Shown in pieces: positions 22,156 through 56,043 of a stretch of DNA of 64,000 bases (positions are counted from its first letter, which is position 1; each line of letters begins with the position of its first letter). Under the pieces are notes generated by a model. The model was not told the DNA's origin. It did no database searches and worked only from the letters and a program-made list of their open reading frames with translations. A program made the position numbers and the translations under genes. Source of the DNA: Mesoplasma melaleucae (GTDB lineage Bacteria > Bacillota_I > Bacilli_A > Mycoplasmatales > Mycoplasmataceae); the NCBI RefSeq assembly GCF_002804105.1, contig NZ_CP024964.1, positions 186,001-250,000 on the forward strand, written 5' to 3'.

Positions 22156-22824
22156 ATGTATAAATTTGTAGATGATACAAAGTTTTTAAAAGAGTCTAAA
22201 TCTTTTTGTAGTAAAATTATTTCAGAATTAGTAGAAACACTTAAAGATGACTACTCAATAAATACTAAATTTTGTAAAATTGGGAGTGGCGCTAAAAATT
22301 TAATAACTCAAAATGGAAGTGGTGATATAGATTTTGATTATAATATTGAGATTTTACATTGTAAAGATGGCAATTATAAACCAAAAGAAATCAAAGAAAA
22401 AATAAAAAAAACTTTCAATAAAGTATTAAATAAAAATGGATTACAAGATTGTAAAGATTCAACATCTTCGTTAACTGTTAAAAATATAAAGTTAGATTAT
22501 AAAAATAAACCTTATTTCAGTATAGATTTAGGAATAATTATTGAATGAGATGATGGGACTGTTTCTAGATTAATACATAAAAAAACAGGAAATACTAATT
22601 ATGATAATTGAGAATGAAATACAGCTACAAGATCGTTAGAAAAAATAAAAAATAAGATTAAAAAATTAAAGAAAGATGGGTGTTGAGAAATTTTACGTCA
22701 AACTTATTTAGATAAGAAGAATTTATATTTAAAAAGAAACGATTTTAATCATCCTTCTTATATATGTTATATAGAAGCTGTAAATGAAGTATATAATAAA
22801 AATATTAACGGTTTTTATGATTAA
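22156..22824 (+). CDS. Polymerase-beta-type nucleotidyltransferase, orphan
   Basis: 222 residues, with TGA-Trp from 22546 on. The pattern GSGAKN...GSGDIDFDYNIEI gives the GS and DxD acidic pair of the pol-beta nucleotidyltransferase fold, and FSIDLGIII can supply the third acidic residue. Such enzymes include cGAS-like second-messenger synthases, MNT antitoxins and tRNA modifiers; the sequence does not decide. No effector gene lies next to it: the neighbours are an IS remnant and a structured non-coding island. Confidence 0.6.
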
Positions 22825-22959
22825 ATAATATATAAAAAATATTTATTTCAAATTAGTTTTTAATTTAAAAATTTTTAATGTTATAATAATTTTAACAAAA
22901 CAAAGAACTGCATATTAAAATACTTTTATTTAATATGAGTTTTTTAATATGGAGTTTTA

Positions 22960-22992
22960 AAAGCAATTACTAAAAAGTGGTTGCTTTTTTTG
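22960..22992 (+). terminator. Terminator-like hairpin
   Basis: AAGCAA...TTGCTT stem around a loop with an inner AC/GT pairing, followed by seven T. It is 135 bp after the nucleotidyltransferase stop and just before a short signal-peptide ORF. Confidence 0.65.
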
Positions 22993-23026: not shown

Positions 23027-23131
23027 ATGAAAAAATTGATTACAAGTTTATTATTTTCAACATTAAGTATTTCTAGTGTTAGCATTTTTGAATTAAATAG
23101 AGAAATAATGTTTTTTAATACAGGCATTTAA
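23027..23131 (+). CDS. Short signal-peptide-like ORF, probably a truncated secreted protein
   Basis: 34 codons with a perfect AAGGAGAG site. The peptide is a Lys start and hydrophobic core (MKKLITSLLFSTLSISS) typical of Mollicute secreted-protein leaders, then stops after FFNTGI. It is probably the 5' remnant of a larger exported protein interrupted by whatever brought in the region to its right. Convergent overlap by 4 nt with the next gene. Confidence 0.5.
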   Translation: MKKLITSLLFSTLSISSVSIFELNREIMFFNTGI

Positions 23132-23346
23132 TTATTCCTTTCTAAATTATAATATTTATCTAAAACTTCCCCTGAAGTCTTTATAATATCTAAATCTAAT
23201 TTATTTTTTTGAATATATTTTTTTGTTAAATCATAACAAAGATTTTCTGCCAAGCACTCTCTAGCTTCTGGATTTCTAACTCTTGATTTTGATAATTTTT
23301 CATCTACTTGCTTGATAATTTCTTTATATATATTTATTTTTGTCAT
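23128..23346 (-). CDS. Small hypothetical protein, 72 aa
   Basis: Hydrophilic, mostly helical, charged protein (KQVDEKLSKSRVRNPEAREC in the middle). AGAAAGG precedes the ATG at 23344-23346. No recognised family. It lies just left of the structured island, facing the truncated leader-peptide ORF. Confidence 0.6.
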   Translation of the reverse strand: MTKINIYKEIIKQVDEKLSKSRVRNPEARECLAENLCYDLTKKYIQKNKLDLDIIKTSGEVLDKYYNLERNN

Positions 23347-23382
23347 TTTTTAATAGACCTTTCTTAAAAAAGTTAAATAGTG

Positions 23383-23406
23383 TTGTATAAGGTTATATAA
23401 TTTTTT
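23383..23406 (+). repeat. Left arm of the island-flanking inverted repeat
   Basis: TTGTATAAGGTTATATAATT plus TTTT; it matches the right arm (23876-23899, other strand) at 22 of 24 positions. Each arm is itself close to palindromic (TTGTATAA/TTATATAA). Confidence 0.8.
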
Positions 23407-23439
23407 ATTATTTAAAATTTTATTATTTTAATTTAAAAA

Positions 23440-23880
23440 TGAAATTTTGATTTATTTTATGGCAAACTTCCAGAGAATTTTTGCTTTGGAACAGAGTTTG
23501 CCCTATAGAAAGGCAAACAAAGTAAGTAAAGTAAAAATCAACTTCCGTCGAACATTTCCCCATCACTTCGGCAAATACAAATTACGGCATCTCACCCCAC
23601 CAACCTTTTAAAATCTAAAAGGGATTTGCTACTGCTAAATTGAGACTTCCATTTTATAGCTACAAAAACTATAAAATCTTCCTTTGAAGTAAAAAAACTT
23701 CAATAGATCTATAGACGCAACTCTATAGAAACCAGACCTTATTTGGTTGTCATCACCAAAAATTAACGTAAATTTCAACCGGAGCACATTTTTTAATAGC
23801 TTTCACTAGAACATGAGCTTGCTCAGACCAACCCTGCTACTGATTTTAAAATCTAAAATGGTATCTTGGGGTTAAAAAAT
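23440..23880 (-). ncRNA. Candidate large structured RNA (family unknown; strand tentative)
   Basis: A gene-free block, visibly richer in G and C than its surroundings, made of consecutive hairpins: GGCAAACT (23461) / AGTTTGCC (23495); CCTTTT/AAAAGG near 23614; ATTTTATAG/CTATAAAAT near 23653-23681; TTGAAGT/ACTTCAA near 23685-23702; TCTATAG/CTATAGA near 23706-23727; GGTTG/CAACC on the minus strand near 23745-23780; and GAGCTTGCTC at 23815-23824. Read on the minus strand, TAGT-GAAA-GCTA (23797-23808) is a GNRA-capped stem, which favours that strand. The words CAGTAGCA and an AGATTTTAAAA motif each occur twice. It resembles the layout of large ornate phage/plasmid RNAs (GOLLD/ROOL-like), but that identity is only a guess. 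Confidence 0.5.
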
Positions 23881-23899
23881 TATATAATGTTATACAATT
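23876..23899 (-). repeat. Right arm of the island-flanking inverted repeat
   Basis: On the minus strand TTGTATAACATTATATAATT plus TTTT. Together with the left arm it could close a 24-bp terminal helix around the structured block, or represent terminal inverted repeats of a small mobile element of about 520 bp. It also contains a TATAAT reading into the island. Confidence 0.8.
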
Positions 23900-23980
23900 T
23901 ATAAAAATTTAAATCTTGCATCTTTCACAAAACAAAGCACCACAATATTTAATTTTTACCTGCTTTATTTTTGACAACAA

Positions 23981-24004
23981 AAAAAGCAGTAATTACTGCT
24001 TTTA
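23981..24004. terminator. Bidirectional terminator right of the structured island
   Basis: A perfect 22-bp palindrome with arms AAAAGCAGTAA/TTACTGCTTTT. The longer T-run is on the minus strand. Confidence 0.7.
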
Positions 24005-24041
24005 AAATTCAAACAACTTTTTGTCCTAAAATAGGGGTTCA

Positions 24042-24194
24042 GTGCTTAATAAATATTTAAATGTTGCTACTGGTGTAGAAAATAATGAATTTAATAAAGT
24101 TTTAGCAGATGGACAAGAAGAAGACTTTAAAGAATTACAAAAACAAGGCATTAATACACAAAATAAATTAATTAATAATGCTACTAAAAAATAA
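24042..24194 (+). pseudogene. C-terminal fragment of a phage-like protein
   Basis: 51 residues from a GTG with no good ribosome site (NVATGVENNEFNKVLADGQE...) to TAA at 24192. No upstream coding context survives because the structured island abuts it, so this looks like the tail of a longer gene. A small hairpin terminator follows. Confidence 0.45.
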
Positions 24195-24198
24195 AAAT

Positions 24199-24221
24199 AG
24201 GGGCAATAATTGCCTCTTTTT
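24199..24221 (+). terminator. Terminator-like hairpin
   Basis: AGGGGCAAT/AATTGCCTCT stem followed by five T. Confidence 0.6.
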
Positions 24222-24236
24222 ATATAAGGAAAATAT

Positions 24237-24949
24237 ATGTGATTTTTAACATTATTAGAAGCATTTTCATCAACTACACAAGCAAAAGATTTATTAGAAT
24301 TTATACGTGGTGGTAAAGTTATAAATAAATATACTGATGATAACTTTAAACAAGCATTAAAAGCATTTTTAAAATATGAATTTAAAACTAAGCAAATTAA
24401 TTTAATTAAAAAAGAATTTAATAAAATAAATATTAATAAAAATATTTCAAAAACATTACAAAATAATAAAAATACTTTAAAAAGAGATTATTTAAAAGCA
24501 TTAGGAATCCCAAATAAAATAGAACAAATACATTTTAAGTATTTTGATGAATGAGATAATGAAATTTTAATAGTAGTTGATTAATTGCTGGTAGTTATTC
24601 AAAATCATCAAAAACACTTGAAATAACTACAATTAAAGCAAAAAGTTATATTTACCCTAATGTTGATAAAGAAATATGAAATAAAATGAAAAATGCTATT
24701 GGTAAAAATGGAACTGGTGCTGGTAGTATATTTTGAAATTATTATTTAAAACCTAATGGTTGATTAAAAAGTAATAAAAGAAAATATATAAAAGAAAATG
24801 TAAGTAAAAAGTTTTATTCTTATTGAAATATTACACCAATAGGAATTAGTAAAACACCTGATAAAAGAAGACATATAGCAAAGAAAATACATTCATTAGA
24901 TAGCATTTTTAATAAGAAAGTAGGAAAAAAACATGGCAGAATTATTTAG
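24237..24949 (+). pseudogene. Phage-like protein split by a frameshift
   Basis: First frame 24237-24584 (115 aa, AAGGAAA ribosome site) begins MWFLTLLEAFSS and ends VVD; the other frame continues without its own start or ribosome site from about 24581 as LIAGSYSKSSKTLEITTIKA to TAG at 24947. The join is at TTGATTAATTG. It may be a decayed gene, or two products from one frame change. The next gene starts 17 nt inside its end, so translation was coupled. Function unknown; neighbours suggest a virion or tail component. Confidence 0.55.
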
Positions 24950-26435
24950 TTTTTATAAAAATTGAATATCAGAAGCAGAATTAAAAGCAATTGGTTTTAT
25001 TGATGATAAAGAAGTTGGTTTAACTAGTGAAGTTATAACAAGAGCAACAATATATGGTGCTTATACATTAGATAAAAATCTTAGTGGTGGTAGATTAAGT
25101 AAAAAAATAGGTAATTATTCATTTGAAGAAACACCAAATTTAACTAATTATGAAAAAGAAGAAATTAGAAATTGTGTAGCAATATTAGCAAAACAAGTTT
25201 TAGATTATGGTGCTGATGAATTTTTAAGAGGTTCTACAAGTGTAAATATGGGAAATATTAATGTTTCACAAACAAACCCAGAAGACCCATTTTATATTCC
25301 TTTAAGTGTAATTGATAGCATGATTAATTTAGGTTTATATGTTAAATTAAAAGGTGTTAATATTGAACCTTATACTAATACAGGTATTCATACACCTTTT
25401 AATACAATTGATGATAGTATGTTAAATAATGTAAGTTTTGATTGAGCAAAAAGAAATTTAATAAGTAAAAATGAAATTATTGGGGATGAACCATTATATG
25501 TTAAAATAAGTCAAAATATAAATGGTATGGGTTATGGAAATATTAAAATAGGTTTAAACCCTGAATTAATAGGAAATTGAATTATTGATAATCTTATTCA
25601 AAATATTATTAATGAAGTAATAAAAAATGGTTTAGAAGAAGATGTAGCAATAGCAATATTACAAGATGAAAATAATTTCTGACAACCTTTACTAGCAGCT
25701 TTAGAATTAGATAATAATTTACAATCTTTATTATCTGAAAAAATTAAAGAATTAATAAATAATGATAATGAATTTATTAAATTAATTGTTAATGGTATTT
25801 ATCCACAAGTTAAAGATGAATTAAAAACTGATACACAATTTATTACAGATATTTCAAATAATAGTATTAATAATATTAAAAATGATGCTACTTTAAAACA
25901 GGAATTAAAAGGTGATAAAGGTGATAAAGGAAATGATGGAACTATTAGTAATATAAATGATATAAATCTTTCATCAAATCAAACTATTATAAATTTACAA
26001 AATCAAATTAATCACTTAAATAATACTTCATTATGAAATATTTTTGAAAATAAAAAATTTAATCAATATGGTTTTCGTATAGGAACAAAATTTAAACCAA
26101 GTAATTTAGATTTTACAAGACCTTTTATATTTAAAATTGGACAAAGTAGAAGTGGTAATATAGTTATTTCACCAACTATTTACACTTATACACCTGAATT
26201 TTATATTTATGGTTTACAAGTAGGATATGATAATGATTTTGTCTGAGCATATAATGATGGAAAACCAATTATTACAACTGATGGAATTGAAATAACAAAA
26301 GTAGCATTAACAAATATTTCTCAAAGTAATTCATTATCAAACTTAAATATTAGTTCAAATTTAGTTTTATATTTATTTTACTGACAACCTGATAAAGAAA
26401 TATCAGTTTTTAAAAAGGATAATCATTATGAATAA
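24933..26435 (+). CDS. Phage fibre-like protein with collagen-type repeat
   Basis: 500 residues. The N-terminal ~150 residues are a compact acidic domain (NWISEAELKAIGFIDDKEVG), then a long helical Asn/Asp/Leu-rich segment, and around residue 325 the triplet run GDKGDKGNDG typical of trimeric collagen-like phage fibres. The C-terminal ~150 residues are beta-rich with aromatics (FYIYGLQVGYDNDFVWAYND) and could be the receptor-binding tip. The order domain-coil-collagen-tip fits a tail fibre. Its stop overlaps the next ATG. Confidence 0.6.
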
Positions 26436-27006
26436 AAAAGAATATGTAAGTTTATGAGTTAAAATATTTGGTGAAAAACCTAAAATTGATTTAGCATTAA
26501 TGAGTGATAGACAAAGAGCTTTATTTAATTGAAGAAAAATTGTAAGATTAATAACTTTATTAATGTATGCTTTTATTTGAAATGGTTTATTTAGTATTGG
26601 TTGATATACACATTTTCATCAAAATAATAATGAAATAATTAATAAAATTGGAAATAATGTAAATACAATTATTTTAGGTATAGGTCATTTTTCAGTTGGT
26701 TTAGGACAATTAATATTTTCAAAAATAACATCAACAAAAGTTCATAAAGTAGAACAAATTAATGGTAATAATATAATTAAAAAATCAAAAATAGGAATAT
26801 TATTTACTATATTAATTTTAATACCTATTATTATTTATTTTATTGGGTATATAATTATTTTAATTAAAATACCAGATAAATATTATAATTCTTATTCTGA
26901 TGGTAAATTTAATAAAAATGAATACAAAGAATATAAAAAAGCAAAGATACAAGATATAAGCATATTGAAAGAAACAATAGATAGTGTTTTAGATATTAAA
27001 GATTAA
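26428..27006 (+). CDS. Membrane protein downstream of the fibre gene
   Basis: 192 residues starting 8 nt before the fibre gene stop, with AAAGGAT upstream. Four hydrophobic segments are visible: LITLLMYAFIWNGLFSIGW, TIILGIGHFSVGLGQLIF, IGILFTILILIPIIIYFIGY and its extension. The tail is charged. Could be a phage membrane or anchor protein; no family recognised. Coupled with the fibre gene. Confidence 0.65.
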
Positions 27007-27059
27007 TGTTATAATAATTAAGCATAATATAAATCAAAATAAATCTTAAATGATTTTTG

Positions 27060-27089
27060 GGGCAGGTATGGAGTGATATCTGCTTTTTT
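27060..27089 (+). terminator. Terminator of the phage-like gene group
   Basis: GCAG...CTGC stem with an inner A/T pairing and six T. Confidence 0.6.
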
Positions 27090-27166
27090 CATTACAAATA
27101 TATTTTTATATGATAATATGATTTATAAGAAAATATAAGAAAGTAATAAAAAATAGGTGAATTATT

Positions 27167-27673
27167 ATGGAAAATAACAAAGTTTTTCAAGTAGCAAATT
27201 ATGTCCTTAAATACTATGAAGAAAAATATAACAAAGAAGAAAAAGAAATTTCAAATTTTTTAAAACAAAATTTTACTGTTTTGAGATTTCATAAAATAAT
27301 GTATTTTTTGCAAGGTTTATATTATTCTAAAACTGGTAAATTATTGTTTGAAGATCAATTTGAAGCATGACAATATGGGCCTGTTTTAAAAAAAATATAT
27401 AATGAAATAAAAAAACAAAAATATAATAATAATGAACTAAACTTTAAAGAATTAAAATTTGATATTTTTAATTCTTATAACATAGATTTAAATAACGAAG
27501 ATTTTGATTTTTATGAATTACGAGAAATTCTTTTTGAATTGGATAAAATTTCTACTTGAAGTTTAGTTGAAATGAGTCATTCATCATTATCGCCTTGAGA
27601 CAAAACTGAAAATAACCAAGAAATAAGCAACAATTTATTAAAATCATATTTTGAAGGAGTTTCAATTAAATAA
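27167..27673 (+). CDS. Panacea/SocA-type antitoxin (DUF4065)
   Basis: 168 residues with TGA-Trp at 27368. The sequence FHKIMYFLQGLYYSKTGK, then LFEDQFEAWQYGPV, is the hallmark of the Panacea (SocA, DUF4065) domain, which neutralises many unrelated toxins as the first gene of a two-gene operon. The next ORF starts 1 nt after its stop. An AATAGGTG site precedes the ATG. Confidence 0.85.
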
Positions 27674-27674
27674 A

Positions 27675-28058
27675 ATGAATAATTTTCAAAAAATAACTTT
27701 TAGTAATAAAAATCAATTGTATTTTTGTTTAAAGTATTTTAATTTTAAAGAAATGGATAAAACATATATAAATAATTATAAAAAAGATTTTAAAAAAATG
27801 TTAGAAAAAATAGTTGATTTACATGGCTCTCCTGCAAATGAAATTATTATAACAAATAAACTAATATTAGAAAAAGCAACAAGCTGTAAAGAAAAAGCTA
27901 TAGCAAAATTAGGTGATAAAGTTTTTAATGAAAAATTTAATGGTAAAATATATGATTTTTTTAGAGGCAATCACCCTCTAAGAGTTTTTGGTGTTTTAGA
28001 TAGTTCTAATAATTGCTTTTATTTATTAGAATTTGATCCAATACATACAAGTAGATAA
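27675..28058 (+). CDS. Putative toxin of the Panacea pair
   Basis: 127 residues. Translation probably couples to the antitoxin (1-nt gap), with GAAGGAG 15 nt upstream inside the antitoxin gene. The protein is basic and ends with a compact domain containing HPLRVFGVLDSSNNCFYLLE, a beta-hairpin pattern seen in RelE/HigB-like RNases, but I cannot assign the family. The toxin role is inferred from position behind a Panacea gene. Confidence 0.55.
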   Translation: MNNFQKITFSNKNQLYFCLKYFNFKEMDKTYINNYKKDFKKMLEKIVDLHGSPANEIIITNKLILEKATSCKEKAIAKLGDKVFNEKFNGKIYDFFRGNHPLRVFGVLDSSNNCFYLLEFDPIHTSR

Positions 28059-28125
28059 ATAGAACAAGAATTAAAACATCTTTTTTTGATGTATTTTTTA
28101 TATAATAATAAAAAGGTAAAAAAAT

Positions 28126-29592
28126 ATGAATAATGAATTAATAAAAAATATAGAAACATATATTAGAAATAAAGAAAATAATAATATAGCATTATCAGGC
28201 CTTTGAGGTTCAGGAAAAACAACTATTATTGATAAAGTAGCAGATAATTTAAAAGAAGATTATCAAATAATTAAACTAGATTTATGAAACTATGAATTAT
28301 ATGAAGAAGAAGTTTTTTGTCAAATTATTTTAGATATAATGTTAGGATTAAATTTTGATGAAAATAACTTTAAAAATATTTTTGCAAATTCAATTAAATT
28401 ATTTGCCAAAGATGTTCCTGTTGCTATTTTAGAATCAGTTTTAACTAATTTTTTTGAAAAAAATAATTTAAATAAAGTTTTAGAAGTTTTTAAAAAATCA
28501 ATTAGAAATATTTTTAAAAGTTCTATATTTAATGAACTTTCTGAAAATTATCAAAAAATTATTTTTAATAAAAAGCAAATAGATTATTTAATTTTTTTAA
28601 TGAATGAAAATTTTTCAGAATATTTTAAAAAAAATGATAAAGAAAAAATATTAATAATTTTTGAAGATTTAGAAAGATGTTCAGAACTAAATATTATAAA
28701 AATTTTAACCTATATTAAAAATGTTTTAATAAAATGCTCAAAAAATAATTTAAATTTTGTTACTATAATAAACAAAAATCAAATTGCTAGTATTTTAAAA
28801 TATAAAGATGAAGAATATATTGAAAAAGTTTTTGAAAAAATTATTGATATAAATAAATTTACTAAATTTAGTAATGAAATATATAAAAATAATTTTAAAA
28901 ATGAATTAGATGAAATTGAATTAGAACTAATTAATCATTTTAGTGATAATTTAAATTTTAGAATATTTGAAAAATATCAAAATATAATTTCAAATCTTAA
29001 AAATAAAAATGATAAATATTTTGTTCTTTGGCTTTTTTTATTAAAAAATAATAAATCTAACAAATATAATAATTATTTTGATAATTATTATAATAAAAAA
29101 AAGAAAAATGAAAATGAAATAAAATCTTTTTATGAAGAATATTTAATTTTCAATGCTAACAAATCAAATTTATATTCAAATAAAAAATCTTTTTTTGAAA
29201 ATTTTCATTATTTAGATTTAATAAATTGAAAAGCTGAAAATACTTATAAAATTGATGGTACTAAATTTAAAATTTTATCTAATATTGGTAACGGAATAAG
29301 TAAATCTTATTCTTTTGATAATTTTATTATATTTTTGAACATTTATGAAAAAATCAATTTTAAAAACATACCAAATTGTTTAAAAAATAACAATTCTGAT
29401 TTTTTATTTAATTCAAATATTATATTTCATATAGAATTAAACAATAATTCATTAGATATATTTGATAATGATTTTAAAGATTTTTTTTTAATTTTAAATT
29501 CTAAAAAACATTTATACAATATTTTTTTTAACATAGCAGAATATATATCAAATTTAAATTTAGAATATGTATATTTTTTATTAGAATCATAA
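28126..29592 (+). CDS. KAP-type P-loop NTPase
   Basis: 488 residues (two TGA-Trp codons early and one at 29227). Walker A is LWGSGKTT at about residues 28-36; Walker B is LIIFEDLERC, the KAP-family form in which an Asp-Leu-Glu-Arg follows. Beyond it the protein is Asn/Lys-rich. No membrane segments typical of animal KAP proteins are obvious. KAP NTPases are common in phage-defence islands; here it sits right after a Panacea toxin-antitoxin pair. AAAAGGTA precedes the ATG. Confidence 0.75.
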
Positions 29593-29599
29593 ATATATA

Positions 29600-29630
29600 A
29601 AAACACTCTTAATTGAGTGCTTTTATTTTA
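29600..29630. terminator. Bidirectional terminator between convergent units
   Basis: CACTCTTA/ATTGAGTG core with AAAA and TTTT flanks, between the KAP NTPase (+) and the membrane gene (-). Confidence 0.8.
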
Positions 29631-29958
29631 GTTTAAATTTTTTGTTTACTTTGCTATCACTGATACCTTTTACTAAGTCAGCATTGATTGCTAGTATTGC
29701 TGCTTGTTTTTCTTCATCAGTTAAGTTGTATTTTGTTAATTCTTGTCCTAATGCTGAATTTAATAAACTATTTCTATTCATTAACTCAATAACAGCATTT
29801 CTGTATGCTTTATTTTGTCTTTCATCAACAATTTCTTTTGCTATTCTTTTTCTATTTTGTTTTTTAATAGATAAAGAAAATAACATTAATAAAATACCTG
29901 ACATTAAACCTGCTCCTGCTATTCCAGCAGCAATACCAATTATAATTTGTAATGACAT
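29623..29958 (-). CDS. Small membrane protein, end of the recombination operon
   Basis: 111 residues from the ATG at 29956-29958 with AAAGGAA upstream; a longer upstream frame lacks a ribosome site. One N-terminal glycine-rich membrane segment (IIIGIAAGIAGAGLMSGILLM) and a charged helical tail (KRIAKEIVDERQNKAYRN). Function unknown; position after other small membrane genes suggests phage or ICE late-early function. Confidence 0.65.
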   Translation of the reverse strand: MSLQIIIGIAAGIAGAGLMSGILLMLFSLSIKKQNRKRIAKEIVDERQNKAYRNAVIELMNRNSLLNSALGQELTKYNLTDEEKQAAILAINADLVKGISDSKVNKKFKLK

Positions 29959-30094
29959 TATTTCTAATTCCTTTCTTTTAAATATAAAAAAATAAACAAG
30001 TACAATGAAACGTTTTGGCAAACCTTTTCAGAAAAATACTTGTTTATTTTATACTTATATTATATCAATAAAAATTAAAAATGTATATTTGATT

Positions 30095-30529
30095 TTAAAT
30101 ATTTTTTAAATATTCATTATTTAAATATAATTTTATAGGTTGACCTCATGGTTTAAATGTAGCATTACTTTCTTTACTATCTTTATTTAAAATATTTTGT
30201 AATTTTATAAAGTTATTTGCTGCTTCATCACCGTAATCATTTGTAAAAAATATTTTATAATTTTCAATAACACTTCCAAGATTGTAAGTAAATGACAAAC
30301 CATAGCTCATTTTTAAATCGTTCAATTCTTCTTTGTTAACTAATTTAATATTTTCAACTGCGTTTTTATTTATTTCTCAGTCATTTATTTTTACTCAGAA
30401 TGGTTTTTCTCAATTTGGTTTTATTGTTGCTGTTGTTCTAGGAATTAAAACTCCTACACCTATTCCAGCACCTAGTAATGCTAAACCAGCAAAAATAGAT
30501 AATATAGGTATTCATACTTTCTTTTTCAT
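30095..30529 (-). CDS. Membrane-anchored small protein
   Basis: 144 residues, start at 30527-30529 with AAGGAGTAAT upstream. An N-terminal helix (IPILSIFAGLALLGAGIGV) is followed by a hydrophilic, probably extracellular domain with several TGA-Trp codons (KPNWEKPFWVKINDWEIN). No lipobox Cys. No known family. Confidence 0.65.
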
Positions 30530-30571
30530 AATTACTCCTTATATTTATATTTTTAATAATATCATTTTTAT

Positions 30572-30739
30572 TTAAAATAATGCTTTGCTAATGATAATTG
30601 CTATAAAAATTAATATTGCTATTGCTAGTATAAAACCAATAGTGTAAAAGAATATTTCAAATTTAATACCTGTATTAATAGTTTTTTGTATTCCTTGCTT
30701 ATCTTTATGACATTTACATTCTTTATCTTCTAATCTCAT
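30572..30739 (-). CDS. 55-aa protein with C-terminal membrane helix
   Basis: Starts 10 nt inside the end of the SSB-like gene, so translation is coupled. The N-terminus is charged with a Cys-x-Cys-His cluster (MRLEDKECKCHKDK) and the C-terminus is one helix (TIGFILAIAILIFIAIII). Function unknown. Confidence 0.55.
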   Translation of the reverse strand: MRLEDKECKCHKDKQGIQKTINTGIKFEIFFYTIGFILAIAILIFIAIIISKALF

Positions 30740-31158
30740 ATTATTTCTTCTTCATTAAATGTTGTTAAAATATCTTTATTTTGATTATTTTTGTCATTTT
30801 GATTTTTAATAATATTTGTTATTTTAAGCTTTGTTTCTCAAGGTCCAGTTTCTTTTCCATCTTTATCAGTTATATATTGTCAAACTCCATGAGCATTTAA
30901 ATATTGATATTTTGCTTGTTTATTTTTCATTTTACATAATTGATATTCAAAAATAACTGTTTCTTTTTCATATAAATTATTAATTTTATCTACTACTTCA
31001 TTAAAAGCAACAAAATCAAATTTAACTTCTGCTTGATTATGGTCTTGTATATTTTCAATAGTACCAACAATCATGTTTAAATAAGTTCCATCATTTCTTT
31101 GTTTAGTTAGTGTTTTTTTAGATATTACATACCCTTCAATTTGTCCTATATTTAACAT
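30730..31158 (-). CDS. SSB-like single-strand DNA-binding protein
   Basis: 142 residues. The N-terminal GQIEGYVISKKTLT...VKFDFVAFNEVVDKI pattern matches the OB-fold core of phage SSBs (strand-turn-strand with aromatic FDFVAFN). The C-terminal tail ends acidic (FNEEEIIWD), as in proteins that recruit partners through it. It starts at the TAATG overlap with recT and is the natural partner of RecT and the exonuclease in strand annealing. Confidence 0.65.
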
Positions 31159-32135
31159 TAATTTAATTCCTCTAATTCTATATTTAAATCTTTTAAAGTT
31201 AATAAATGTTTTATTTGTTCTTCATTTAATTCTGAAATTTTAAAATTATTATCTTTTAAATAATCAATAACTATTTTTTTAAAATTAATATCATTATTAA
31301 TTGCTTTTTGTAATTCTTGTTTTAATGTTAATAATTCATTAATAACTATGGGTTCTAATTGCTCTATATTTGCTTGTTTTAAAGGTTCTTCATATTGTTC
31401 TACTAATACTTCATCTTTAACTGATAAAACCATTTCATCATCAATTAATTTATAACCAAAACTATACATTTTAGTATTATCAAATTGAATATCTCTAATT
31501 ACCATATCTCTTATAACTTTTGCTTCAATCATTTTAATTGGAAAATTATTTCAAGGTGAATATTCACTATTTCCTGATGGTGATGAAGATTTAATTTTAT
31601 CTAATTCACTTTTACTTAAAACTCTTGTTTTTTTAATTTTATTTTCAAAATTAATTGTTCCAATAGCAAAAATAATATTATTATAATTATTTCTATCAAT
31701 TGTAAAATCTGGTTCATATTCTATTAAAACTTGATTACCATATTCATCAATTCCAAATTTATATTTATCTTCATTAAAAACTACTAATACATTAATGCTT
31801 TTAAATTTATTGATTCCAAATTTTAAAGCTAATTGTTTTCAAGCATTAGCATTTTTAATTTCAACCATTTTATTTTTAAATTTTATTAAATAAAAATCTT
31901 TATTTAATACTAAATTACATAATGAATTATTAAATATAGATAATAATGTAATTTCTTTATTTTCACTACTTAAAATTGTATTTAAGGCATTATCTCCTTT
32001 AATACTCATTTCTTTTAGTGCTGTAATATTATTTTTAATTGCTATTTCTGCTTCTTTATTTAATTTAATAGTTTTATTAGATGTAAGTTTATTTATATCT
32101 ATTTCAAATTGTTTAATTTCTTGTATATTACTCAT
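31158..32135 (-). CDS. recT: RecT-family recombinase
   Basis: 325 residues (four TGA-Trp codons). RecT annealases bind single strands and drive phage-type homologous recombination. Recognisable are the central block ending YEPDFTIDRNNYNNIIFAIG and, at about residue 195, SPSGNSEYSPWNNFPIKM followed by IEAKVIRDM, the RecT signature (SPWxxxFxxMxxKTVIR). The C-terminal third is Glu/Leu-rich helices. It overlaps the exonuclease gene by 8 nt and the SSB-like gene by 1 nt. Confidence 0.8.
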
Positions 32136-32748
32136 TTGTAATTTCTCCTTTTAATATATTTAAAATGTATTTAACATTTTTATTTGCTTGTTTTTCTTGT
32201 TTATTTGTAAATGTAATAAATCTATTTTCATTAGGATTAAAACATTCAAAAATAAACTTTGTATTTTTATTAATATTTAAGTTATCTTTTATTAAAATTT
32301 CATATAATTTTAATTGTGTTAACGTTTTAATTTGATTAGTTATTTTATTTGTTTTTCAATCTAGTAAATGATAATTATTATCATTATCTAAATACATAAA
32401 ATCAAATGTACCTAAAAAATAATTATTAATTAAACTTATTTCAGTTTGAGGTTTATTTATATTTAAAAAGTAATCATCATATCAAAATAAAAAGTTATTA
32501 AATAAATTATTATGTAATTCTTTACTATATTCACAATTACAATTTAAGTCAAAATTATTATTAATATAAAACTCAACTCTTTTATGAAAACAATTTCCTC
32601 TTTCTTGGTAAGGCTTTAAAAATTCAACACTACAATCTTTGTAATCATTTTTATATTGTGGTAATAATTTTAATAATGCTGATACACTTGGTAAATCAAT
32701 ATAATATTTATGTGTTAATTCATCAACTTTTATATTTTTATGAAACAT
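32128..32748 (-). CDS. PD-(D/E)XK exonuclease, RecT partner
   Basis: 206 residues. RecB/YqaJ-like nuclease: RGNCFHKRVE (motif I region), then FLGTFDFMYLDNDNNYHLLDWKT with the catalytic Asp and the D-x-K of the PD-(D/E)XK core, and a downstream QLKLYEIL helix. It would resect double strands so that RecT can anneal. Position immediately before recT supports this. Confidence 0.75.
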
Positions 32749-33158
32749 TTATAGTATTCCATTTTATCTAATAACATTAAAAAATTTAATTTACTTTGTT
32801 TCTTTGCTTCTTTTCAATGTTTAGGTCTTAATATATAACAATCAAATCCTTTATTTGTTAGTTCATTAAACTTTTCAATTTGACTTGGTCTTAATTTACT
32901 TGTATCTGTTTTAATTTCTATAAAAAATGTTTGTGAATTTTTAAAGGATTTTTCATAATTTTTAAATACAATTACATCAGCAAACCCTTCTTTATTTTTA
33001 ATAGGTCTAAATTCACCTGTATAAGTACCTTTATCTGTTCTTTTAACTTCTCCTGCTGGTAAATAAGATAAACCCCCAGTTGTTTTAATATAAAGTATAT
33101 TTTCTTTTTTTAATAATGCTATAAATTTATCTTGTAGCTTTGCTTCTTCTTTTCTCAT
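32730..33158 (-). CDS. VRR-NUC domain nuclease
   Basis: 142 residues. The VRR-NUC core is visible: EEAKLQDKFIALLKKENILY, then KEGFADVIVF and FFIEIKTDTSKLRPSQIEKF, with the catalytic Asp and the E-x-K of the PD-(D/E)XK fold. Such single-domain nucleases in phages act on branched DNA. It overlaps the exonuclease by 19 nt and the next small gene by 1 nt. Confidence 0.8.
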
Positions 33159-33343
33159 TACTTTAATTTCTTTCTTAAATATCTTTTATGGTATCAACAA
33201 GTGTAATTAATATAATTTTGTTTGTAATCTGTACTATAATCTGCTAAAAATTTACAATCTACTTCACATTGAAATTTATATTCATTAATAATTTCATTTG
33301 GTATTTTATAAGTTGTTTTCTTTTTTGATTTTAATAATTTCAT
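33158..33343 (-). CDS. Small basic protein, 61 aa
   Basis: Lys-rich protein (MKLLKSKKKTTYKIPNEIIN) with two Cys and a WYHKRYLRKK end. Starts at 33341-33343; the ribosome site is weak (TTAGG). Stop overlaps the VRR-NUC start (TAATG), so it belongs to the recombination operon. Confidence 0.55.
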
Positions 33344-33396
33344 AGCCAATAAACCTAAGCTTATTCCTTTTTATGTTTCTATAAGTTCTAATTTCA

Positions 33397-33768
33397 TTAA
33401 ATTAACTCCAAATGATAATCATCATTTATTAATTCTTTTACTACTTCATCATCTAATTCAATGTATTGTCCATAATAATAACCTTCATTTAAAATTTTTA
33501 CTAAATCTTCATTAATAGCACAATCAAGTATGTAATCTTTTAAAATGTTATATTGCTTTAAATTATTTGTATCTTTTGCTATATCAAGTATTAAATCTTC
33601 TCAAATATCTTTAAATTCTTTTTCTGAATATGTATTTTTAAATGTTTCAATTATTAAATCTATTTCTGATGGTAAATTATTTATTAAACTTAGTAATAAT
33701 CATTTATTATTTTGTTTATTGTTATTTTGTATAAGTTCTTTTTGTATAATGTTATTTTGAATATTCAT
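33397..33768 (-). CDS. Acidic hypothetical protein, first gene of the recombination operon
   Basis: 123 residues, AAGGAG upstream. Acidic, helical (EIDLIIETFKNTYSEKEFKD ... DDEVVKELINDDYHLELI). A family is not recognised. A pair of 14-bp direct repeats lies just upstream of it. Confidence 0.6.
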
Positions 33769-33814
33769 TTTGTATAACTCCTTTTTGTTTATGTTGCTAA
33801 TATTGTGTTTTGTC

Positions 33815-33850
33815 TATGTATATCTATGTTTATATATATGTATATCTATG
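33815..33850 (-). repeat. Two 14-bp direct repeats in the operon leader
   Basis: TATGTATATCTATG at 33815-33828 and again at 33837-33850, a 22-bp period (two helical turns), directly upstream of the recombination operon. The spacing suits a repressor or activator binding side by side. Confidence 0.55.
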
Positions 33851-33874
33851 TATATGTGTTCTCCTTTTCAATAA

Positions 33875-34192
33875 TTAGCAAATAAAAAACCAGAGGATAT
33901 TACCTCCGGCAAAAGTGTTATGCACCCAAAGAATTTTATTTATTCTTCTACGAATACCTTCATTTTCTGAAAAAAGTAGAATCCTATCTTTTAGTCTTAT
34001 TATTATAATAACTACCTGTTTGTTTCTTAATCAACCTGCAGCAATTGAAACAATTAGACTTATTGCAAAACCTAGAGTAATGAAATACTCTCAATAGTTC
34101 TTGTCACTACTCATTGCAAATTTAGCAATTAAATATGTTATTAATACATAAACCAAAGGAATAAAAAGAACAATTAAATAATCATATGACAT
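33875..34192 (-). CDS. Small membrane protein
   Basis: 105 residues from an ATG at 34190-34192 (a run of open codons precedes it without a ribosome site). Two membrane helices: YLIVLFIPLVYVLITYLIAKFA and FITLGFAISLIVSIAAGWL; TGA-Trp twice. A hairpin CCGGAGG/CCTCTGG with a T-run (33886-33911) overlaps its last codons, so the true end is less certain. Function unknown. Confidence 0.5.
33886..33911 (-). terminator. Terminator-like hairpin
   Basis: On the minus strand CCGGAGG-TAATAT-CCTCTGG is followed by six T. It overlaps the 3' end of the small membrane gene, so it would close that unit before the recombination operon starts. Confidence 0.6.
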
Positions 34193-34331
34193 TAGTTTTT
34201 TAGAACTTTTGTACTTAGCTTGTTTTATTATTTCTTTATCATTTATATTAGACGAATTAAATTTTTGGGAGTAAAAATTTTATGGGGGGTCTAGCTTAAA
34301 GCAGACAAAGACTTCTTTATATGTCAATCTC

Positions 34332-44676: not shown

Positions 44677-46110
44677 TTACTTTAAAAAATTAAAAAATAT
44701 TTCTTCTATTTCATTTACTAATTGGTTATTTCTATCGTTTAGAATTTCATCCAATAATATATTAGAACATGCTTTTTTATCAATTATAGAATTTGTGGCT
44801 TCTTGTGTTTGATTTAATATTGCTTTTTGTAATTTTAATTTATTTTTTATAAGTTTTTCAATTTCAGGTTTAGAAAAATCTAAATAGAATTCAATACATT
44901 TTCTTTTTAAACAATAAACTGTTTCGTTTATTTCAGGTTTAGTATATTTTTTATGACTTTTATCTCCATCTAAAATCTTTAAAATTGGTATTTTTGATGT
45001 TAGTAATTCTTGATTTCTTTTTAATACACGTTCAAAATTATCCGCACCATTTAATGGAATGAAAAAAACTTTTTTCTTTTTATTTTCATCAATGTTTTCA
45101 CAAAAAATATTAAGTATATGTTTATAAATATTCATGTCTTCATTACCTTCTACAAAAACAAAATATTTGGGTCCAAAACTTGAAGCTAAACTAAACGAAT
45201 CTAAAAGTATCGAATTTATTAATTCTTGATTTTTTGAGTCTGATTTATCATTTAAAAATATAAGTTCAGTTTCATCAAACTTTAAATTTATAATTATATT
45301 CATTACTATTGGAGAATGAGAAGAAATGAATATTTGTTCGTACTTACTTGCAAAAATTTTTGTAATTATACTTTCAACTTTATTTAAAGATAGATTATTT
45401 TCAATTTCATCAACTATTAATGTTGTTTTATGCAAATTTTCTTGCATACATAAAAGTGAATAAACAATACTTTTTTTTGTTCCTGAACCCATTTGGTCAA
45501 TAGATTCATGATCTGGAATTTTTGGTTTAACTACTTTATAAGATTTTGAAATATCAGATGATGAGCTTAAATTTAAATTCTTTAAAATAACATCTTTATT
45601 GTCAAATAAAAAAATATCTTCTTTTAAAAAATTAGTTGAAACATCAAAAATACTATTTTGATATGCCTTATTAAGTTTTTCATAGGCTTCATTTAGTTCT
45701 TTATCTTCATCAATTTTTTTATAAAAATAACTACCAACAATTTTGCTAACAACGTTGGTATAATCAATATTTTCTGAATCAATAAAAATAACGTTATTAG
45801 ATTCCAAAATCTTTTTAATTTTTAAATATTCTAAATCACTTTCGTAATTAATTAAAACACCTTTCTCATTAAATTCTAAATTTAGTTCTTCTTGTTCTTT
45901 AAATTTAACTTTGAATCTTGTTTTTTTCTCTTTGTCTTTAGAAAAGTAATTTAATTTTCCATTTTCGAAATAATTAAACATATCATTAATTAATTGCAGT
46001 AAAGTTGATTTACCTGAATTATTTTCACCTATAAGTAAATTTGTTCTTTTAAAATTAAAATTTTTTTCTTGTATTTTCTTATAGTTATAAACTGTTATGC
46101 TTTCTATCAT
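44677..46110 (-). CDS. OLD-family ATPase-nuclease
   Basis: 477 residues. The N-terminal ABC-type ATPase has Walker A NLLIGENNSGKSTLL, a signature-like QMGSGTKKSIVYSL and Walker B TTLIVDEIENNLS with H-loop ISSHSP. The C-terminal TOPRIM nuclease domain is marked by YFVFVEGNEDMNIY and ILKILDGDK. OLD proteins (P2 Old, GajA of Gabija) cleave DNA and act in antiphage defence; no Gabija helicase partner is adjacent. It is the last gene of the unit started by cassette D. Confidence 0.85.
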   Translation of the reverse strand: MIESITVYNYKKIQEKNFNFKRTNLLIGENNSGKSTLLQLINDMFNYFENGKLNYFSKDKEKKTRFKVKFKEQEELNLEFNEKGVLINYESDLEYLKIKKILESNNVIFIDSENIDYTNVVSKIVGSYFYKKIDEDKELNEAYEKLNKAYQNSIFDVSTNFLKEDIFLFDNKDVILKNLNLSSSSDISKSYKVVKPKIPDHESIDQMGSGTKKSIVYSLLCMQENLHKTTLIVDEIENNLSLNKVESIITKIFASKYEQIFISSHSPIVMNIIINLKFDETELIFLNDKSDSKNQELINSILLDSFSLASSFGPKYFVFVEGNEDMNIYKHILNIFCENIDENKKKKVFFIPLNGADNFERVLKRNQELLTSKIPILKILDGDKSHKKYTKPEINETVYCLKRKCIEFYLDFSKPEIEKLIKNKLKLQKAILNQTQEATNSIIDKKACSNILLDEILNDRNNQLVNEIEEIFFNFLK

Positions 46111-46155
46111 TATTAATTGCCTCTTTATTCTTATATAAAATTATACAAGAAAAAA

Positions 46156-47049
46156 CTAGATTAATTCATCTAGTAATTTTTTTGTATTTTGAGTTTCATC
46201 TTGTCGTTTTTTCATTTCTGGAAGAATTTTATGAATTGCTTCATCCATTGGAGCAAATTTTAAATTTAATCAAACATCTTTTAATGAAGCATTATATAAA
46301 GGATGTTTTTCCTTATAGTTACTTAAATTAATATTGTTATTTTTACATCAAACTTGTTCTCTAGCAATTCATTGCGGTGTTCAAGTTTCTTTTTCTCAAC
46401 CAAATTGCTCAGGATTCTCAACAAGTTCTTGTATCAATGGATCTTCAAGATTACCAGTTATTAATGCTTTAACCAAAGCGTCAGCTCTTTTAACAATTAA
46501 TTCAGACTCAATTTGAGCCATTAAAGCAGCTTTGTCATAAAGTTCTGGGTTTGCATCTAAATAGTCTACAATAGGCTTAATATTTGCTTTTCATCATTTA
46601 TCTTCAGTTCTAGGCAAATCATTAACTAATATCTGGTGTCCAAAAGAAAGTAATTCTAAAGGTCAAATATAAGGATCTTTTCTTGGTTCTTTTCATCGCT
46701 TTTCATCAGGATAACCTCTATTGTAATCATACGCATAACTTTCTCATATTGGGGTTTTTGTATACTCACATAATCAATGCTTTTCACATTTTTTATCATA
46801 TTCATTTTTCCCTGTACAATATTTCTTAAACGCTTTTAAATAAATGTCCAAATTTATATCTTCAGTTCAGAGATTTTCATTTTTAGCAAGTGCTAAATAA
46901 ACAATCCAAGTTTTTGTTCTATTGTATCGTCATAAAGTACCATAACCATATTTTTCTTCATTTAATCAAAATTTCTTTTCGTTCTCTTTAAAAGATTGAT
47001 GAAATGCTTTATCTTCCCTCTTGTTTTCCAATCACTTACCTAGTCCCAT
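46156..47049 (-). CDS. Trp-rich hypothetical protein
   Basis: 297 residues, start at 47047-47049 with AAAGGAT upstream; no membrane segment. Unusually rich in Trp (more than 20, almost all TGA), e.g. KPDWKWPLELLS-like stretches and KETWTPQWIAREQ. Function unknown. Lies between the VirB6-like membrane gene and the OLD nuclease, in one transcription unit. Confidence 0.65.
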
Positions 47050-47093
47050 ATTTTTCACATCCTTTTATATAAATATCATATCATACAAGAGTT

Positions 47094-48845
47094 TTAATAA
47101 CCTTTTTTAGCTTGTTTAGATTCTTGTTTAGCAACTTTTTCTTTTTCCTTTTTATTTTTTGATCTTTGAACATTTCTTTCATGAAGTTCCATTCTTCTTT
47201 GACGATATTTATCAGTTTCAATAATTTTTTTAAGTTTTGGTTGATCGTTTAATCTTTGTTCTGCAACTTGTTTTTGCTGTTTAAGTTGTCTATTTTCTTT
47301 CAACCTCATATCAATATTTTGAGTTTTAGGATTTTTATCATATTTTCTTTCTAAAGTGGCATTCAAGTTCATTGCTGCTTGTCGCTTTGTTTCAAACAAT
47401 GGTTTAGCATTAATTATGTTACCATCAGCATCAATTTGTCTAACACCAGATAGAACGTTACTTGCTTTTTGAATAGCACCAGTTTTAAGATTTTCTCAAC
47501 CTTTTCTAATTTTTCCTCTAGCAGCAACAGATTTATAAGATTTGTTTTTAAATTTACTTGCTGCGTATAAAGTACCAGCACCAATTCCAACTCCAGCAGC
47601 TATTTTAGCACCAATTTTAAATCTATTTTTTCAGTGTCCCAATGCATTTGTTGAAATACTTCCTTCACCAGTTGATACATCGCTTAATCCTTTACCACCC
47701 ATGCCTGGAACATTTCTACTAAGATTGCTTTTTCTTTTTATTCTATTTGCTGTATTATACATTCCTGCAGCTTTTAAACCAATGTTTGTTGCTGCCATCA
47801 TTCCAACTCCTGATGCTGTTACAACTCCTTTTGCAGCTGACATTACATCTTTATCAATTGAACGCTCACCACCTGCAAATTGTGATGCTAAACTTGGGCC
47901 AATAATTAAGAAACTTGCACCAGCTCAAATTATAACTAATAAGAATGCAATATCTACCATTGCACCAGCTCCGCTTATAACATCACTTGGGCGAATTTTA
48001 ATTAGTGTATTTAATAAAATACCAAATACTAAAAATATTGAAACTCCAATTGCCATAGATACAAATTTGTTAATAATTTGTTCTTTTCATAATTTTAAGC
48101 GTGCACCGTCATCATTTACCATTGTAGCAGCAGCTAATGGTCCTTTAATGAATAATCAAAAGATTTCAAATGATTTAACAGCCATTGAAATAATCGAAAT
48201 AGACATCCCATAAAATAATCCACACACAGCAGCAATTTCAATAAAAATATTATAATCTCCACTTAACATTTTTGATGGTGGTGCTCATAATGCAGACCCA
48301 GATCCAACTGTTACAACACCATCTCAATCCATATCTCCGATATGATATAAAATTCTAGCTATAGATGTTACTTCATTACCACCAGACAAGATAACAAACA
48401 ATGCTTGAATCATTATCATTGTAAATCCTGCAGCAATAAATATTCCAACAGGCATTAATAATGAAACAACTACACCAGTTAATGAAGCTTTTATAGCTTT
48501 AATAAGTCTTGCTTTTACTTCTAAATCATCACTTACAGAAATTGTACAATAATTTATCATAAAAAATATTACTGTAAGAGTTATTGATAAAATTCAGAAG
48601 CCAATAAATGCTGGAGGGATATTTTGCAATGAAAAGAAATTAATTTCTTTTCCATTAGCATCAACACCAAATCCAAATAATAATTGTAAAACTAAGTTTC
48701 CTGCTAAATATACAAATAATTGTTCGAATGCTTCAATGATCATCAAAGCAGGACCAATTAAAATTAATCAGATAGCAGAATATATAAATCCAAATAAACC
48801 AGATTGTAGTGCTGAGTTTATGAGATCAAATAATCAATCTAACAT
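47094..48845 (-). CDS. VirB6/TrbL-like conjugation membrane protein (Mbov_0396-like)
   Basis: 583 residues. The first ~330 hold six to seven membrane helices (IWLILIGPALMIIEAFEQLF, FIGFWILSITLTVIFFMI, GVVVSLLMPVGIFIAAGFTM, and others), as in the translocation-channel protein of type IV secretion systems. The C-terminal ~250 residues are cytoplasmic, Ala/Gly-rich then very basic coiled coil (RKEN-RQLKQQKQVAEQRLND). Position after the pilin-like gene and in the same operon as other transfer genes matches mycoplasma ICEs. Confidence 0.8.
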
Positions 48846-48892
48846 CTTCTTGTTTCCTTTCTATACTTTCTAACTAAAGCATTTTATTTATT

Positions 48893-49213
48893 TTAGGGTA
48901 TTGGAATTTCTGGTGGTTGGAATAATTGCATTCCTGTAGCCACAATAACTGTTCCAAAAAGGCCTGCTCCAAGTGATATTATTAACCCAAATACAATTCA
49001 ACCCAATTGAACAAGCATTTTCTTTTTAGCGCTTGAATCAGCATCTTCATCATTTGACAGTGCAATTATTTTTGCTCCAACACGCACAATAGCTCAAATT
49101 GAAAATGCAGCAACAGCAAAACCAACAATCATTAAGAATGATCCAAATAAATTATTAATTAGACCCATAAGTTGTGTTCAGTCAATAGTACCATCACTAG
49201 CGTATAATGTCAT
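48893..49213 (-). CDS. Pilin-like conjugation protein (Mbov_0395-like)
   Basis: 106 residues with two long hydrophobic helices (SFLMIVGFAVAAFSIWAIV; VQLGWIVFGLIISLGAGLFG), the layout of VirB2/TrbC-type pilins. Resembles the mycoplasma ICE family Mbov_0395. Promoter cassette D lies just upstream, and a ribosome site GAAGGGAG precedes the ATG at 49211-49213. Confidence 0.75.
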
Positions 49214-49289
49214 AATTAGTTTCTCCCTTCTTTCAAGGAAAAAAGTCTTGTCAAACACAACACTTATATACAATTATGAATTAACGCAA

Positions 49290-49340
49290 AAAAGAGCATG
49301 TGTTTAACATGCTCTCTTCTCTTGTTAATCTAATTATATA
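49290..49340 (-). promoter_or_regulatory. Promoter/early-terminator cassette D
   Basis: -10 TATAAT (49333-49338), 8 bp, CAAGAG (49319-49324), then AGAGCATG...CATGCTCT hairpin with a T-run. Upstream of the pilin-like gene, 30 bp after the stop of the HNH gene. Confidence 0.7.
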
Positions 49341-49369
49341 ACATAATAGTAATAATTGTTAATAATTTT

Positions 49370-49633
49370 TTATTTGTTACACATTTTGTGTACTGCTATT
49401 AAATTTTTTGATTTATTTGTTCCACCTTGTGATTTTGGATTAATATGTTCTACGTTTCATGAACTAGGATTATTTGGTTGTCATCCTTCATAAGCTCCAT
49501 ATTCCAGAATCCCGTTACATCTAAAACATTCTTTGTGGCCTCAATTACTTTCATCTTGTTGTGCTCCACAATTACATTTAGGTGCATTATTTCATGCTTG
49601 TTTAGGATTTGAATTTAAATCTTTTTTTGCCAT
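49370..49633 (-). CDS. HNH endonuclease-like zinc-finger protein
   Basis: 87 residues. Two CxxC/CNC-type knuckles (KCNCGAQQ, CFRCNG) followed by the HNH core NVEHINPKSQGGTNKSKNL...HKMC, with the His-Asn-His catalytic pattern. Starts 19 nt inside the end of the coupling-protein gene. HNH nucleases occur in many mobile elements; its target is unknown. Confidence 0.75.
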
Positions 49634-52083: not shown

Positions 52084-52451
52084 AAAAATGTACTTAATTC
52101 TTTCTGTGGACCTGATTGATCATTAATACTTGAAAAGAAGCCTGAAGATATTCCTAAAATTATCATAATTGTTCAACATAAAATTGTGATTCCAAAAAAT
52201 ACTCAAAATTCAATTTTCAATTTTCTGTGCAATATTTTGTAATTGTTATCCAGTGAAATATTCTCTTCAATTTCAGTACTTAAACCATTATTAATATTTT
52301 TTTGTTTTTTCAAATAATTTCTTAAATTTATTTTAGTTTTTTTCATACTTCTTGTACTTTTTTTAAGTCTGCATCTTTGATATAGAAAGTATAATGTGAT
52401 ACATAGTGAGCCCATGCTTATAAAAGCAACAATTTGCATAATTTCTGTCAT
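52065..52451 (-). CDS. Small conjugation-module membrane protein (Mbov_0398-like)
   Basis: 128 residues with two helices (IVAFISMGSLCITLYFLYQ; FGITILCWTIMIILGISSG) and a basic loop. It starts after the VirB4 gene with a good ribosome site (AAAGGAG) and overlaps the coupling-protein start by 19 nt. Probably a channel component. Confidence 0.65.
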
Positions 52452-52468
52452 ATCATTTTTCTCCTTTT

Positions 52469-55210: not shown

Positions 55211-55278
55211 GTTTTCTCTCCTTTTCTTAAAATCAAGCAGAAAAACATTGTTAAACTTTAAACACATTCAAAACAAAA

Positions 55279-55329
55279 TAAAAAGAACATGTGTTTAACA
55301 TGCTCTTCTCTTGTTAATATTATTATAAC
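55279..55329 (-). promoter_or_regulatory. Promoter/early-terminator cassette E
   Basis: Extended -10 TGTTATAAT (hexamer 55322-55327), 8 bp, CAAGAG (55308-55313), then AAGAGCATG..CATGTTCTT-type hairpin and T-run. It starts 27 bp after the stop of the 35-aa gene and precedes the VirB4 gene by 70 bp. Confidence 0.7.
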
Positions 55330-55353
55330 ACTCTTTTTACAGTTACATATAAT

Positions 55354-55461
55354 TTATTGTTTATTCATTTCATTATAAATTCCTTGAACAACTTCAGTTC
55401 TTGAAGTTTCATTATTTAAATCAATAAAACTTTTTTGATTTTTAAAATCTTTTAATGCCAT
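55354..55461 (-). CDS. 35-aa hypothetical protein
   Basis: Start 55459-55461 with AGGAGA upstream; short, charged (MALKDFKNQKSFIDLNNETS). Begins 8 nt after the stop of the acidic coiled-coil gene, so the two share a unit. Function unknown. Confidence 0.45.
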   Translation of the reverse strand: MALKDFKNQKSFIDLNNETSRTEVVQGIYNEMNKQ

Positions 55462-55469
55462 GATTTCTC

Positions 55470-55943
55470 CTATTCTAATCCAAGTGGATTACTTGGATTT
55501 ATATATTTTTTTTCTTTTTTACCGCCAAAATCTTGTTCATCAACTATTTCGACTTGTTTGCCAATTAATTCTTTTACAGATTTAACAATTTCTTCAGTAT
55601 TTGCAAATGTAAAATTTTGAACCATTTGTTTAATAAATTCTAATTGTGTATCTGTAATATCTAAATTTTGTGATAATAATTCTTTTTGAATTAATTGATT
55701 ATTTAAAGATTGAATTTGAAAATCTTTATCTTTTAACGAATCTTGTAATGCTAAAATTTCTGTATTTTTATTATTAATATTTTCTTTAATAATTTCATTA
55801 ATTTTAGACTTTTGTTCATCACTAAATTGTACTTCTTCAGTTTTAATTTCTTCTTCGTTAGAAGGTTCTGATTTATCTAATTCATCAGAAGTTTCAGGCG
55901 CAGTTTCCTGATTAATTTCATCTACTTTTGTTTCTTCTGTCAT
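55470..55943 (-). CDS. Acidic coiled-coil protein
   Basis: 157 residues, AAAGGAG upstream of the ATG. The first 60 residues are strongly acidic and repetitive, the middle is a Leu/Gln coiled coil (LQDSLKDKDFQIQSLNNQ), and the end contains FGGKKEKKYINPSNPLGLE. Composition and layout resemble phage scaffolding proteins or cytoplasmic chaperone-like factors. Function not identified. A T-run hairpin lies upstream. Confidence 0.6.
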   Translation of the reverse strand: MTEETKVDEINQETAPETSDELDKSEPSNEEEIKTEEVQFSDEQKSKINEIIKENINNKNTEILALQDSLKDKDFQIQSLNNQLIQKELLSQNLDITDTQLEFIKQMVQNFTFANTEEIVKSVKELIGKQVEIVDEQDFGGKKEKKYINPSNPLGLE

Positions 55944-55988
55944 ATTTGTTTCTCCTTTGACATTTGGCGAGTACCAATAAGTTAAGTA

Positions 55989-56028: not shown

Positions 56029-56043
56029 GAAGAGATTAGTTTA

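Follow-up and report, generated by a model that had tools for sequence, protein, structure and literature searches.

A probable large structured RNA at the end of a degraded Mesoplasma melaleucae prophage, in a position that holds other structured RNAs in Spiroplasma phages

Only a few large structured RNAs have been described from phages, with functions that are not settled. GOLLD RNAs have a conserved 3' region and a variable 5' region, and many members are 800 nt or more in length (PMC12286853). The non-coding block described here is, like GOLLD and ROOL, large and phage-encoded, but it has no Rfam match to either family and lies neither beside tRNA genes, as GOLLD does, nor beside a tRNA island, as ROOL does. 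Closer counterparts are two unnamed RNAs found in the present analysis in Spiroplasma prophages, types 1 and 2, the first of which is not in Rfam 15; the Spiroplasma counterpart resembles GOLLD in its kept 3' and variable 5' parts, and ROOL in being pseudoknotted. Type 1 is like the block in its slot (an end motif, a hairpin with seven T residues, the RNA, a ribosome-binding site [RBS], and small early open reading frames [ORFs]), in its length of about 500 to 550 nt, in being GC-richer than its surroundings, and in belonging to the same phage group as judged by RecT and the tail fibre. It differs in having no detectable sequence or model similarity to the block; its conserved pseudoknot and 3' hairpin are not recognisable there, and the 25-bp arms that close the block are not seen in type 1. 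Type 2 shares the slot and is of similar size (about 380 nt), but has nothing in common with the block beyond AT-rich runs.

The window, the whole 64,000-nt stretch of DNA that was analysed, comprises bases 186001 to 250000 of a single 845,295-base contig, and it has genes in which TGA encodes Trp. One rRNA operon and six tRNAs lie at 5.4 to 11.1 kb, and the block lies, as the earlier note had placed it, between a nucleotidyltransferase-like gene (22156-22824) and phage-like genes, which form a degraded prophage (24030-34200; Table 1). Beyond the prophage come a UPF0236-type transposase and then a region resembling a conjugative element. Several neighbouring genes are of note in their own right. 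The nucleotidyltransferase-like gene weakly matches an anti-phage oligonucleotide-cyclase model; the phage tail end (27050-29592) holds a SocA/Panacea antitoxin-like gene, a 135-aa ORF and a KAP P-loop NTPase, which are possible defence cargo; and the conjugative-element-like region (44677-58377) has a TraG/VirD4-like coupling protein and a HerA-like ATPase, together with an OLD/AriA-like ATPase and an Eco57I-like restriction-modification gene. A terminator-like hairpin akin to that at 24003-23982 precedes a truncated lipoprotein-like gene (22959-22988 and 23029-23130).

Table 1. Coordinates of the block, its parts and the adjoining phage features in the window
Feature	Position	Strand	Basis
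72-aa ORF that comes directly after the block and has no family match	23128..23346	minus	ORF list and searches
AGAAAGG, possible RBS right after the block	23358..23364	minus	sequence
Proposed structured non-coding RNA block	23383..23897	minus	GC island, folding z-scores, absence of ORF, position
Inverted-repeat 3' arm (RNA sense minus)	23383..23407		23/25 complementary to the other arm, unique in 43 kb
Two predicted hairpins with common GGCAAAC/GUUUGCC, mutually exclusive (23461-23502 or 23496-23518)	23461..23518	minus	sequence and predicted folds
Module 2: GUCUCA ... CAGUAGCA, hairpin CCUUUUAGAUUUUAAAAGG, closing UGAGAU; module 1 duplicated within the block	23590..23646	minus	predicted fold and repeat test
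Three strong hairpins in a row, where folding is most stable (z -4.4 minus, -5.7 plus)	23640..23759	minus	folding z
Module 1: AACCCC ... hairpin AUUUUAGAUUUUAAAAU, CAGUAGCA, GGGUU closing	23830..23873	minus	predicted fold and repeat
Inverted-repeat 5' arm, with TATAAT within it aimed into the block	23873..23897		complementarity 23/25 and sequence
Hairpin and seven T resembling an intrinsic terminator, about 85 nt ahead of the block	23982..24003	minus	sequence; like arrangement in Spiroplasma phages
AGGACAAAA, matching the motif at the end of MaM-2019a-like prophages in Spiroplasma	24019..24027	minus	motif comparison
Probable truncated phage gene, 3' remnant; start of the surviving structural module	24030..24194	plus	open frame that lacks a proper start region
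Tail-fibre-like gene; 145 aa align at 25% identity with a gene from the G019 triple prophage	24933..26435	plus	protein comparison
Phage early/recombination genes: possible SSB (position only), RecT, exonuclease, VRR_NUC	30730..33158	minus	protein matches

With its arms the block is about 515 nt long. Its core (23460-23876, 417 nt) has a GC content of 0.35, peaking at 0.38 to 0.39, and the neighbouring DNA has 0.17 to 0.22, which bears out the GC-richer island described before (35% versus about 20% around it). The lack of coding capacity is likewise confirmed: ORFs are no longer than 54 aa and there is no long frame in either the standard or the Mycoplasma code, and the GC pattern by codon phase (0.32/0.40/0.32, versus 0.35/0.28/0.04 in the tail-fibre gene) lacks the signature seen in genes of this genome. 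No open frame in the block has the codon-phase composition of a protein-coding gene. The closing inverted repeat is real, although the right arm had been placed about 3 nt off; the arms, 25 nt each, pair at 23 of 25 positions (92%) and form the only inverted repeat of 25 nt with two or fewer mismatches and a spacing of 200 to 700 nt in positions 20901 to 64000, scoring 19 against a maximum of 13 in 60 shuffles, none of which equalled it.

The whole block folds with minimum free energy (MFE) z-scores of -4.5 (minus strand) and -5.8 (plus strand) against dinucleotide shuffles, and without the arms the values are -2.2 and -4.1. Because the z-scores are low on both strands, structure exceeds chance and energy leaves the strand undecided. 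The prediction contains about seven to nine local hairpins, in keeping with the roughly seven stable hairpins counted earlier between the arms, and the structure drawn for the block is a prediction from a single sequence. The words CAGTAGCA and AGATTTTAAAA, which the earlier note had seen twice, do occur twice each on the minus strand, the latter within an 18-nt repeat of 94% identity; they belong to two similar modules, each with a UUUUAGAUUUUAAAA hairpin and a CAGUAGCA strand in the adjoining internal loop, and the repeat score of 15 exceeds that of all 60 shuffles (maximum 11). Of the GNRA-capped stem noted on the minus strand, the GAAA loop and its short stem are present (UAGU-GAAA-GCUA), but the MFE structure does not contain it. 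The two overlapping hairpins near the 3' arm may alternate, and their mutual exclusion would fit a switch.

Type 1 was found in a GC-rich, mostly non-coding island at a prophage end, ahead of the early genes, in the Spiroplasma genome G019. That genome holds a tandem of three near-identical 20.3-kb prophages (L040-L042). The 551-nt query from the G019 island matches many divergent copies in genus g7, which the match to S. poulsonii phage records suggests to be Spiroplasma, as well as the three GenBank records of Spiroplasma phage MaM-2019a from S. poulsonii. The RNA is structured, about 540 nt long, and located at one phage end ahead of the early genes, and Rfam 15 gives no match to it. Across 26 aligned non-redundant copies the stems are conserved, the 5' domains are swapped, and an RBS lies immediately past the last hairpin. 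Covariation, measured on an 11-sequence alignment of the type-1 core, gives good evidence that type 1 is a structured RNA: 93.3% of cells are paired versus 85.0% in shuffled alignments, there are 15 doubly changed pairs versus 7.4, 0 of 500 shuffles are as high, and every slid control pairs at 35 to 45%. A 7-bp pseudoknot has four doubly changed pairs. Since several positions alternate U-A with U-G, with G-U kept on one strand (UA:6/UG:5; UG:6/CG:2/UA:2), type 1 is read as an RNA on the early-gene strand. Model R1 matches 8 of 320 genomes of the order, all in one genus. Small "hypothetical proteins" are annotated inside the phage RNA in OL689227 (L115:424-954) and OL689226 (L116:664-1198) and are probably not genes, and an insertion of about 1.2 kb splits the type-1 loci L081 and L082 of another genome (G025).

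Some RecT-bearing g7 phages are without type 1, and several of these carry a different, unrelated-looking island of 380 nt, type 2, in its place; four Spiroplasma genomes have it complete or nearly so. Type 2 and some type-1 variants have a 53-nt hairpin in common, and one locus (L213, G014:C1:383681-384176) is a natural chimera in which a type-2 body is followed by a type-1 3' domain. By eye, the first type-2 hairpin resembles the type-1 pseudoknot-loop helix (GGCUCUACA, with UAGAGC downstream), with one pair broken in two copies. Neither RNA type was seen at a few RecT loci (e.g., L189, L190, L193 and L195), which look rearranged. RNA types are exchanged within a single slot, which was examined within one genus.

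Upstream of both types is a motif, GATGAAGtaGGA(A/C)AAAA or GATGAAGcgGCAAAAAA, followed by a hairpin and six or seven T residues, with about half of the copies examined not fitting the strict pattern. The motif would mark the phage end, because the DNA before it differs between copies. In the Mesoplasma window, the motif and T7 hairpin occur in combination once in 52.8 kb counting both strands (expected 0.001 per 200 nt), the motif being short and recognised there with the Spiroplasma copies already known. The order at the block on the minus strand is that of the type-1 slot, from end motif through T7 hairpin, RNA and RBS to an early ORF. There is thus moderate evidence that the block fills a Spiroplasma-type slot and would be read on the minus strand, a strand argued from context. 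The phage genes point to the same relatives: only one other genome in the family, that of the triple prophage, has a match to the tail-fibre-like gene, and the window RecT, besides its own genome, has family matches only in five genomes of genus g7 (E down to 9e-23), all five of which are among the eight with type-1 RNA.

None of the searches made for relatives of the block itself found one. Rfam covariance models yielded nothing at the gathering score and, up to E 10, only chance-level matches to unrelated families, so that GOLLD, ROOL, OLE and group II introns, the families put forward for checking, do not match. Nor were the copies suggested elsewhere in the genome found, the block being single copy. 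Sixty genomes of the family gave nothing besides AT-rich matches, one of which is a 24-nt match to an arm at an intergenic site, conserved in sister species, beside an apparent tRNA-Ser gene. Among 320 genomes of the order, the single-sequence model R2 gave only chance-level matches, the best other match (E 7e-4 per genome, roughly calibrated) being intergenic and AT-rich. A word search of viral and genome contigs returned no relatives and surfaced five unrelated genomes, and searches of IMG/VR with RecT and the 72-aa ORF gave nothing apart from one irrelevant high-GC contig. Among the papers searched, none relevant to Spiroplasma phage non-coding RNA was found.

Direct comparison with the Spiroplasma RNAs was also negative. 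Model R1 overlaps the block at best with 5.1 bits (plus strand, E 0.7 on a rough calibration, filters off), and nhmmer shows no significant similarity between type 1 and the block. Two candidate links were rejected: a same-orientation word, AAGGAAGA-hairpin-UGG, is a pseudoknot strand in type 1, and its partner was not found in the block; and an opposite-strand match, AGAACATGAG, has an nhmmer E of 0.05 with the block alone and 5.5 with the window, which is not significant. A relationship to type 2 was likewise rejected, as BLAST gives AT-rich matches only.

We favor the reading that the block is probably the gene of a large structured RNA on the minus strand, immediately inside the end of a MaM-2019a-related prophage, most of which is deleted, in the RNA slot. 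The reasoning is that Spiroplasma relatives carry other large RNAs at the same phage-end place, and in most of those examined the slot holds a large structured RNA. The block is best read as a third, sequence-unrelated occupant of the slot, a structured RNA of the phage early transcript, and not as a MITE, ROOL or GOLLD; we infer transcription, function, slot membership and homology for the Mesoplasma copy. The earlier proposal of a large functional RNA gains indirect support through the covarying RNA that related Spiroplasma phages have in the same slot, and the named families fall away.

A rival reading with an appreciable but minor chance is a stand-alone ornate RNA of the GOLLD or ROOL kind, acting in trans, possibly as a homo-oligomer, and merely parked at the phage end. 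The block is phage-encoded, its size and complexity recall GOLLD, and in Spiroplasma the swapping of bodies while the 3' domain stays recalls the conserved 3' and variable 5' regions of that RNA. However, there is no GOLLD or ROOL match in Rfam, the prophage has no adjacent tRNA gene, no terminator of its own is recognised past the RNA, and in Spiroplasma the RBS lies within a few bases of the RNA, which fits a leader.

It is unlikely that the block is a non-functional relic, GC-richer foreign DNA in a decaying prophage. Truncated genes flank it on both sides and it is single copy, but its structure, arms and internal repeats are intact and above shuffles, and its GC content has not drifted to the level of the host. 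Less probable still is a phage-end element acting as DNA, with the hairpins serving a packaging, integration or replication site. The block does adjoin the end motif at the phage end and its two strands fold about equally well, but the Spiroplasma counterpart keeps G-U pairs on one strand, that of the early operon, which points to RNA. The miniature inverted-repeat element proposed earlier, or an IS remnant with 25-bp terminal repeats, is very improbable even though the arms are real, since the genome holds one copy, the flanks outside the arms differ (ATAGTG and TTTATA) with no visible target-site duplication, and 60 family genomes have no copies beyond a partial match of 24 nt, AT-rich and conserved at a single syntenic site between genes.

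Under the favored reading of a slot RNA, the slot would run from the phage end motif through an entry terminator to the RNA, sometimes after one small ORF, and then to an RBS and small early genes that would lead to SSB, exonuclease and RecT. The entry terminator would shield the slot from read-through out of flanking DNA, and the RNA, folded by its closing arms and hairpins, would be the first product of early transcription. Action in cis, as a long leader that controls the early operon at the level of transcription elongation, stability or translation, has a chance approaching even; the main alternative, action in trans as a stable, processed RNA, as GOLLD and ROOL may act, is considerably less likely. 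As counterpoints, the folding z is stronger on the plus strand, the prophage is degraded and this copy of the block may be a relic, and the TATAAT within the 5' arm, if used, would leave that arm untranscribed.

More broadly, we tentatively suggest, at somewhat under even probability, that Mollicutes phages reserve a fixed end site for a large structured RNA and swap unrelated types in it (at least three, with chimeras), the block included, and that the group lies outside Rfam. If true, different RNA machines would be placed at a kept site as if doing one early job. A pseudoknotted, covariation-supported family absent from Rfam has a fixed place in many Spiroplasma prophages, with a probable Mesoplasma counterpart; its fixed position upstream of the early genes makes its function testable, in cis or in trans, and the natural chimeras reveal interchangeable RNA parts.
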